Assembly (NCBI RefSeq): GCF_006716085.1
Contig: NZ_VFON01000001.1
Location: 1,488,001 to 1,552,000, forward strand
Direction of reading: 5' to 3'
DNA from: Leucobacter komagatae
Lineage (GTDB): Bacteria > Actinomycetota > Actinomycetes > Actinomycetales > Microbacteriaceae
Length of the DNA: 64,000 nt
Position numbers and translations under genes: made by a program. Of this stretch, positions 6,466-8,406 are shown piece by piece. The notes beneath the pieces were generated by a model, which was not told the DNA's origin, did no database searches, and saw nothing but the letters and a program-made list of their open reading frames with translations. Position 1 is the stretch's first letter, and each line of letters begins with the position of its first letter.

Positions 6466-8376
6466 TTAGAACGAGAGGGTGTACGACTTCTCCGCGTTGA
6501 CCTCGGGCGCCCGACGGGTGCCTGAGATCTTCACGAAGCTGTTCACCGCGGGAACGAGTGCGCGGAGCAGATCCTTGTCGGCGTCGACGCCCGTGTGGGT
6601 GCGCGCCGTCGCGAGCAGCGTCAGCGAGCCAGCGTTCTCAAGGTTGCGTGCCGCACCGAGCAGGCGCCTTGCGTGCGCCGCAGACAGCGCCTGCGAGGCC
6701 TCGGGAGCGGTGCGCGAGCCCTGCTGGCTCTGCTGAGCCGCGTGAGCGAGGTCCGTGAGCGAGTCGAGCAGCACGATGACGTCGTGGCCAAGCTCAACGA
6801 GACGGCTCGCGCGGTCGATTGCGAGCTCAACGATCGTCGCCTGATCCTCTGCCGCGCGATCGAACGTCGCAGCGATCACTTCACCGCTGACGGTGCGCTG
6901 GAGGTGGGTGACCTCTTCGGGGCGCGCGTTCGTCAGCACGAGGAGCAGGTGCGCCTCGGGTGCGTTCGCGGTAACCGCGCCCGCGAGCTCGGCAAGCACG
7001 CGCGCGGCCGGGATCTCAGCCGGAAGCGCGAGAAGTGCACGCTGGCCCAGGCCCATCGGAGCGGCGGCGTCGATCTCGGCGCCGAGCCCCTTCGTGCCCG
7101 TGGCGAAGCGAAGCGGGGTCTCAGGGAAGATCGCGGTCATCTCGGCGATGTCTGCGCGCTTCTCGGTCTCTTCGACGGGCTTGCCGTTCACCGAATCGAT
7201 CTTGACGATCGCGTTGTACTTCTGACGGCCGCCGCTGTCGCCCTCGCGGGGCTGGCGGATCGCGCCAACGATTGCATCGCCGCGACGCAGGCTGTACTTC
7301 TTCACCTGGCCGAGCGCGACGTACACGTCGGAGACACCCGGGAGGTAGCCGCTCGTGCGCACGAACGCGTAGTTGTCGAGCACGTCGAGAATGCCTGCGA
7401 CGGGCAGCAGCACGTCGTCTTCTGCGATCTCAGGCTCGAGGTCGTCGCCGCCGCGGCGCTTCCGGTCCCGCTGACGGGTGCGGCTCGAACGCGAACCGTT
7501 CTCCTGCTTGTTGTCGGAGCGGTCGTTCTGGCCCTGCTTGTCGTTCTGGCCTTGCTTGTCAGCCTCAGCCTTCTGAGCGTCGCCCTTGGGTGCATCGCTC
7601 TTCGCGCTATCACCCTTCGAACCGTTCTGGTTGCCACCGCGTCCGCGCGACTTCGACTCGTCGGCCGCAGCGGGGGTCTCGCCCTCAGTCTGCTCGGCGT
7701 TCTGCGACGAACGGCGGCGCGAGCGGCGTGCGGGCTGGGCCTCGGTCTCCTCGGCAGCGGGCTGCTCAGCAGCGGCCTCAGCGGTCTCGCTCGCCTTCCC
7801 GTCTGCGGGAGCAGCGTCAGCCGCGTCCTTCGCGGGAGCCTCCTCGGCCGCGGGAGTCTCGGTCGAGGCCTCGGGTGCCTCGGTTGTCGCCGTCTTGCGC
7901 GAACGGGTTGCACGCTTCTTCGGCGCTTCCGCGGGCTGTTCAGCTGCGGCCTCAACAGCTGCGGCCTCAACAGCAGCTTCGGGAGCGGCAGCCTCGGTGG
8001 CCGCCTGCGCGGCCTTCGCACGGGAAGCACGGGTCTTCGGTGCTGCCTTCGCGGGTGCTTCCTCGGCGGGAGCCTCGGCAGTCGCCGCAGCGTCTGCGCC
8101 CTCGGTGTCAGCCGCTGCGGGCTCAGCCTTCTTGCGAGCGCGGCTTGCGCGCTTCGGCGCGGCCTTCTCTGCGGGAGCTGCGGGCGCCTCAGCCGCCGGA
8201 GCCTCAGCCGCGGGGGCCTCGGCGGGAGCGGCAGGGGCCTCTGTCACCGCGACATCGGCGACGACGTCCGCCGCAGCGCCGGCCGCAGCCGACACGCGAC
8301 GCGAGGCGCGACGGCGAACCGGCGCGGTCTCCGCCGGCTCAGCGGCAGCGTTCTGATCTTCAGTGTGTAGTTCCAC
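6466..8376 (-). CDS. Rho-family protein lacking ATPase motifs (pseudo-ATPase at the rho locus)
   Basis: A 636-residue protein with an Ala/Glu/Lys-rich, low-complexity N-terminal extension of about 310 residues, common in actinobacterial Rho. Then comes a well kept OB/CSD RNA-binding part ('[20 protein letters not shown]', '[17 protein letters not shown]'). The motor domain is recognisable ('[15 protein letters not shown]', '[11 protein letters not shown]', '[21 protein letters not shown]') but its catalytic residues are gone. Walker A, PPKAGKT in Rho, reads '[10 protein letters not shown]'. The DERPEEV glutamate reads 'NARPEEV'. The arginine after the Walker B aspartate is D. The Q-loop, R-loop and arginine-finger segment are replaced or deleted, and the C-terminus ends about 60 residues early. 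The frame is intact with no stop, so it is probably expressed. It sits at the canonical thrB-rho-prfA position. Whether a normal Rho exists elsewhere cannot be seen here. Confidence 0.88.
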
Positions 8377-8406
8377 GTGTATTCCTTCCGGAACCTATCA
8401 AGTTTG

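Follow-up and report, generated by a model that had tools for sequence, protein, structure and literature searches.

A Rho orthologue with a putatively inactive motor at the rho locus of Leucobacter komagatae, and similar motor losses in other lineages

The window analysed here (the whole 64,000-nucleotide stretch of Leucobacter komagatae DNA) carries on its reverse strand a rho gene in which the motifs of the ATPase motor have been replaced (Table 1). The reading frame begins at a GTG codon and stays open over 636 amino acids. Pfam places a GHMP kinase and a homoserine dehydrogenase upstream of the gene and prfA downstream, the kinase being, by its place, presumably homoserine kinase. Being prfA-adjacent and single copy in its own genome, the gene is a Rho orthologue by descent; its sequence and the adjacency of prfA agree in placing it at the canonical rho locus, and the 636-codon frame is intact, both as a sequence-only reading of this DNA had stated. 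Antisense to the gene lies a 591-aa open frame (6595-8370, forward strand), probably an effect of the high G+C content.

Table 1. Features of the rho-derived gene and of its predicted product (window coordinates; residue numbers refer to the 636-residue protein).
Feature	Position	Strand	Basis or remark
Whole gene of the putative Rho pseudo-ATPase	6466..8376	-	636 codons plus stop; ORF and profile searches
Ribosome-binding-like GGAAGG	8384..8389	-	7 nt before the GTG start; seen in the sequence
Ala/Glu-rich arm (residues 1-319) containing basic clusters; Rho_N not found	7420..8376	-	Pfam and arm measurement
Intact OB / Rho_RNA_bind domain, residues 326-402	7171..7401	-	PF07497, 3.1e-23; contact residues kept
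Pseudo-motor (degenerate RecA-like domain), residues 403-636	6469..7170	-	Pfam and alignment
Replaced Walker A, residues 451-460	6997..7026	-	Structure match and alignment
Replaced catalytic-Glu motif NARPEEV, residues 483-489	6910..6930	-	Structure match and alignment
Arg equivalent to E. coli R221	6895..6897	-	Kept in 97/97 sequences compared
Walker B region; Asp kept, next Arg replaced by Asp	6748..6780	-	Structure match and alignment
Replaced Q-loop region	6673..6723	-	Structure match and alignment
Replaced R-loop region	6520..6594	-	Structure match and alignment
C-terminus; Leu at the arginine-finger position, no later helices	6469..6519	-	Alignment

At the level of profiles, the two halves of the protein were recognized separately. 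The RNA-binding half matched Rho_RNA_bind, with the contact residues kept, which bears out the earlier description of this segment as closely Rho-like, and the following half gave a degenerate match to ATP-synt_ab (Pfam, 2.9e-8, residues 435-595). The full-length model TIGR00767 (rho) scored 272 bits, below its curated cut-off of 509. Among solved structures, the best match was the Rho chain 7oqh (2.1e-93), which we take to be M. tuberculosis Rho. The Rho_N helices (PF07498), present in the canonical relative L003, were not found by Pfam in the window protein, the N-terminal arm of which (319 residues) is close to the median length of 318 residues in the 118 relatives measured.

We aligned the motor with those of canonical relatives and assigned E. 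coli numbering by motif anchors, the roles of K184, E211, R212, D265, K326, and R366 being those given in PMC8828861 and PMC11718236. The replacements named by the sequence-only reading all hold in this alignment: canonical SPPKAGKT reads LPAEIPAA in the window (PAEIPAA at the position of PPKAGKT), DERPEEV is replaced by NARPEEV with Ala in place of the catalytic Glu (E211), LLDSITRL retains the Walker B Asp (D265) within DSLTD with Asp in place of the following Arg, and the Q- and R-loops that form the secondary RNA site are both replaced. The loss of about 60 C-terminal residues was likewise correctly described, with the chain stopping at the arginine finger (R366), where the window reads Leu (SYTLSF), and the arginine-valve position (R212) is still Arg. 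According to PMC4499133, M. tuberculosis Rho requires a competent catalytic site, and its catalytic-Glu mutant E386A unwinds inefficiently. On this ground we strongly infer that the window protein would be unable to hydrolyse ATP; a hexameric ring, RNA-dependent ATPase activity, and termination are putative at most. Judged by sequence, the protein is Rho by descent and is not a functional Rho on the motifs, profile score, and C-terminus compared.

The earlier reading had left room for another rho elsewhere, and this found no support. The organism's genome measures 3.75 Mb on 2 contigs and is 100% complete; in it, the rho model matched only the locus described here and atpD (at 3.9e-9), and a canonical Rho protein used as query with E values up to 10 added one weak match ~2 kb from atpD. 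Across 54 Leucobacter genomes, all matches besides the rho locus scored at most 40 bits, that of the own genome being atpD. The suggestion of a Rho antagonist is unsuited for this same reason, as the genome holds no active Rho on which it could act. The other two suggestions, that the lineage lacks active Rho and that the protein serves as an RNA-binding regulator, both fit and are compatible with each other.

A rho locus was found in 52 of the 54 Leucobacter genomes (L001, L033-L062, and L093-L113), the two genomes without one being 72% and 76% complete. Scores ran from 546 down to 266 bits, with two above the cut-off, so that loss is graded within the genus. Both K184 and E211 are lost in 38 of the 52 loci and both are kept in 14, including G423, which reads GPHESGKS and DERPEEV. 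By sequence, these 14 loci may still encode motors, and the arginine finger is lost in 5 of 13 keepers, including both over the cut-off (His). The canonical comparison set keeps the catalytic residues in 27/27, a favourable sample given that 25 of the 27 came from the 30 best-scoring in Microbacteriaceae. The nearest named protein belongs to Leucobacter aridicollis (88% identical over 66%), and no canonical Walker A reappears in the nearest species. An artefact of sequencing, assembly, or alignment can be dismissed for practical purposes, as 37 further Leucobacter genomes share both catalytic losses, many of the 38 are complete, and the frames are intact.

No broken frame was found in the 52 Leucobacter rho loci, some of which lie at contig edges where not every end is visible, and simple decay with disrupted frames in relatives, which the sequence-only reading had raised against itself, is thus not indicated. 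The TAG in G096 was considered as a frame break and rejected; it is an early natural end, and G208, a relative, has the same final residues. Having asked for dN/dS across Leucobacter and neighbouring genera, that reading is answered by pseudo-motor values of 0.024-0.085 in 19 pairs (18 by YN00, 1 by NG86), indicating purifying selection, and neither mark of a pseudogene, a broken frame or neutral dN/dS, was seen. In the same 19 pairs, the OB domain gave 0-0.051, and five other Leucobacter pairs gave 0.024-0.206. Canonical motors gave 0.004-0.018 in the five of twelve pairs (three genera) that converged by YN00, and the other seven gave 0.017-0.105 by NG86, overlapping the pseudo-motor range; any relaxation of the pseudo-motor relative to canonical Rho therefore rests on the five YN00 pairs, and the pairs compared share branches and so are not independent. 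The prfA gene was tried as a control and left out, being noisy with frames taken past the start codon. The motor-less protein is constrained, perhaps less so than canonical Rho, and is not freely decaying; part of its motor may be decaying, since constraint on it is weaker than on the canonical motors of the five pairs obtained by the same method.

Conservation across the 38 motor-less Leucobacter sequences is strong in the RNA-binding domain. All 38 keep the five primary-site RNA-contact positions unchanged, their OB consensus is 85% identical to canonical Rho, and OB conservation is 0.95 (0.93 in canonical Rho). The motor consensus is 51% identical to canonical, falling to 14% in the Q-loop and 27% in the R-loop region. 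Out of 236 canonical-invariant motor columns, 57 are kept at ≥95% in the 38 and 13 are re-fixed at ≥90%, such as E211 to Ala (97%) and E333 to Arg (100%). The R221 equivalent is found in 38/38. Of the 38, 27 carry a new acidic pattern, [VIA]D[ED]x[AT], and three more read LDEFA; none of the 27 canonical sequences has it (with V or I first), and it is absent from the window's own clade. The former Q-loop of motor-less Leucobacter Rho (e.g., L050, L052-L054, and L057-L062) carries a new conserved stretch resembling ARPAxDEIDEFALGQIKRLL, seen neither in canonical Rho nor in the window clade.

Similar losses occur outside Leucobacter. In Microbacteriaceae, 343 of 398 genomes pass the rho cut-off, the 55 below it including contig fragments (e.g., G044, G062, and G146); G020 and G073 lie above the cut-off, yet have lost the arginine finger. 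Of 19 loci taken from other genera with low scores, 11 no longer have K184 and 12 no longer have E211. On an rpoB tree of 30 genomes, in which G015 and G027 are long branches, at least six changes were needed per residue (4 and 5 without three long rows). The Leucobacter sequences lacking both residues could form a single clade (p 0.388), and a single clade that also takes in genus g6 is rejected (p 0.024). Two loci (L124 of G030, and L072) keep the P-loop GKS, with DENPETV or DEQPETI and altered Q- and R-loops, and are perhaps an intermediate stage. The shortest form, seen in genus g67 (L119-L121 and L086; genome size 1.2-1.6 Mb), ends near the R-loop and has Arg for the Walker A Lys and Gly for E211.

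In the class-level survey, 289 of 296 genomes pass the cut-off. The low scorers pointed to one family, with nearest named proteins from Nocardioides, which has lost the Walker A Lys in 7 of 8 loci and, in 3 of these, the catalytic Glu as well; as three of the seven still pass the cut-off, cut-off tallies undercount the loss. The Walker A Lys is changed (GRT, GRS, GAT) in all seven of these loci (L354 and L356-L361, of G693, G647, G538, G599, G463, G590, and G557, respectively), and this second motor-less set keeps the OB domain, with the catalytic Glu also changed in L354, L360, and L361. Of the 120 database proteins nearest G590, both residues are missing from 104 and present in 16; among the 120 nearest the window protein, 85 lack both, 32 keep both, and 3 are mixed, both sets being centred on degenerate queries and hence not natural frequencies. 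Databases list such proteins as "transcription termination factor Rho" or as "hypothetical protein". From the sequences, the window gene is best described as a vertically inherited Leucobacter rho orthologue turned pseudo-ATPase, and motor loss appears to have arisen separately in other Microbacteriaceae and, since it is a different family, in the Nocardioides-type lineage.

The explanation that we favour, with fair but far from full confidence, is that a Rho pseudo-ATPase has been maintained as an RNA-binding protein that needs no ATP, in lineages lacking a Rho motor. By way of its primary site and basic arm, the protein would bind C- or pyrimidine-rich single-stranded RNA, neither hydrolysing ATP nor translocating. 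The leftover RecA-like domain would serve as a scaffold, for folding, self-association, or docking on the transcription complex, for which the R221 region is still present. These lineages would then manage without Rho-driven termination, and the protein, rather than being a motor, would bind RNA passively, as a regulator or to protect mRNA. The presence of NusG with its conserved KOW domain fits this account. Counting against it are the weaker constraint on the motor in the YN00 comparison, the 14 Leucobacter loci that may still encode motors, and the lack of the acidic pattern in the window's own clade.

If Rho-driven termination has gone, compensation might be visible in the genome, and none was found in the sets compared. 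Hairpins with a T-tract were present at 19/150 convergent ends in ten genomes with the motor-less form and at 16/196 in ten canonical genomes (80 kb each; antisense controls 15/150 and 13/196), and hairpin z-scores did not differ (152 vs. 188 ends, p 0.90); this test has low power, given home-made gene calls and sites barely above controls in both groups. Nor was avoidance of rut sites relaxed: purine excess was -0.002 in genes of motor-less genomes and -0.018 in canonical ones (p 0.006) and YC dinucleotides 0.156 and 0.172 (p 0.005), that is, purine higher and YC fewer, the opposite of relaxation; with one clade and unequal G+C, we claim no signal from this. Either these tests are weak, or Rho termination was minor in the ancestor, or it has been replaced, or the protein still terminates.

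The last of these is the strongest rival, given that both NusG and the R221 region persist, and we rate it as rather unlikely: an ATP-independent terminator would, together with NusG and the nascent RNA, still dock on the elongation complex and trap RNA polymerase allosterically, without translocation. R221 presumably lies at the NusG contact, and its equivalent is Arg in all 97 sequences compared, motor-less or not. The M205 equivalent is kept in 28 of the 38, and NusG carries a conserved KOW domain in all 15 Leucobacter examined; the lack of any gain in intrinsic terminators also suits this rival. Among the commonest residues listed, however, Lys at K224 is found in none of the 38. A translocation-independent inactivation path appears in PMC11718236 as the title of a reference, and a nusG-G146D rho-R221C strain is listed in PMC1950744. 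According to the latter paper, E. coli Rho mutated in the primary site or in the Q-loop is unable to release RNA, and the Q-loop is replaced here; the catalytic-site requirement in M. tuberculosis (PMC4499133) argues against this rival as well. The KOW loop reads KSGSFEGL in all 15 Leucobacter NusG sequences (L304-L307, L309-L312, and L314-L320), motor-keepers included, and KEGSFAGL or KEGSFQGL in canonical relatives.

Slow decay, in which Rho is dispensable in these lineages and the motor erodes stepwise with only the OB domain and fold partly constrained, is an unlikely account. It would explain the graded scores within the genus, the shortened C-termini in several clades, and a motor dN/dS higher than in the five canonical YN00 pairs, but dN/dS remains far below 1, the 52 frames are open, lost positions have been re-fixed, and the OB domain is as conserved as in canonical Rho. 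We consider very improbable a cryptic motor that still binds and hydrolyses ATP through other residues; the Walker B Asp persists in 37 of the 38 and the arginine valve in 9 (the window included), but the Walker A Lys has gone together with the catalytic Glu and both RNA loops.

Motor-less Rho proteins of repeated origin that selection maintains would be natural separation-of-function variants; through them it could be tested which tasks of Rho require no more than the RNA-binding half, and if termination is possible without translocation. Their recurrence in separate lineages suggests that Rho can have a job without its engine. For annotation, a genome recorded as "Rho present" may still lack Rho-dependent termination or bicyclomycin sensitivity, and a protein above the curated rho cut-off can nevertheless have lost motor residues. 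A bolder extension, which we put forward tentatively and regard as doubtful, is that a second, ATP-independent role of Rho was kept genus-wide after the motor was lost and that Actinomycetota have repeatedly made motor-less Rho, with transcript ends then shaped either by translocation-independent Rho or by factor-dependent termination through a factor not yet known.

PMC8828861 describes Rho as essential in M. tuberculosis and reports high conservation of the motor residues even among divergent Rho factors. In the literature covered here, no report of a motor-less Rho was met, and within that scope the variant appears to be new. With canonical actinobacterial Rho, the window protein shares its place next to prfA, a basic N-terminal arm, the OB domain, a RecA-like fold, and orthology; unlike canonical Rho (e.g., L003), it has lost Walker A, the catalytic Glu, the arginine finger, and the Q- and R-loops, and it lacks the Rho_N domain and ~60 C-terminal residues. 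The short-form Rho model NF041509 (paralog_Rho2) matched the Rho core over 279 positions; identity with it was rejected at 247 bits against a cut-off of 628, and the window Rho is not a paralogue, as no full-length Rho stands beside it. Also close is the Nocardioides-type motor-less Rho, which likewise keeps the OB domain and has lost the Walker A Lys and in part the catalytic Glu, but differs in a longer C-terminus and in mostly retaining the Rho_N region. More broadly, pseudoenzymes are proteins that keep a fold and its binding and have lost catalysis.
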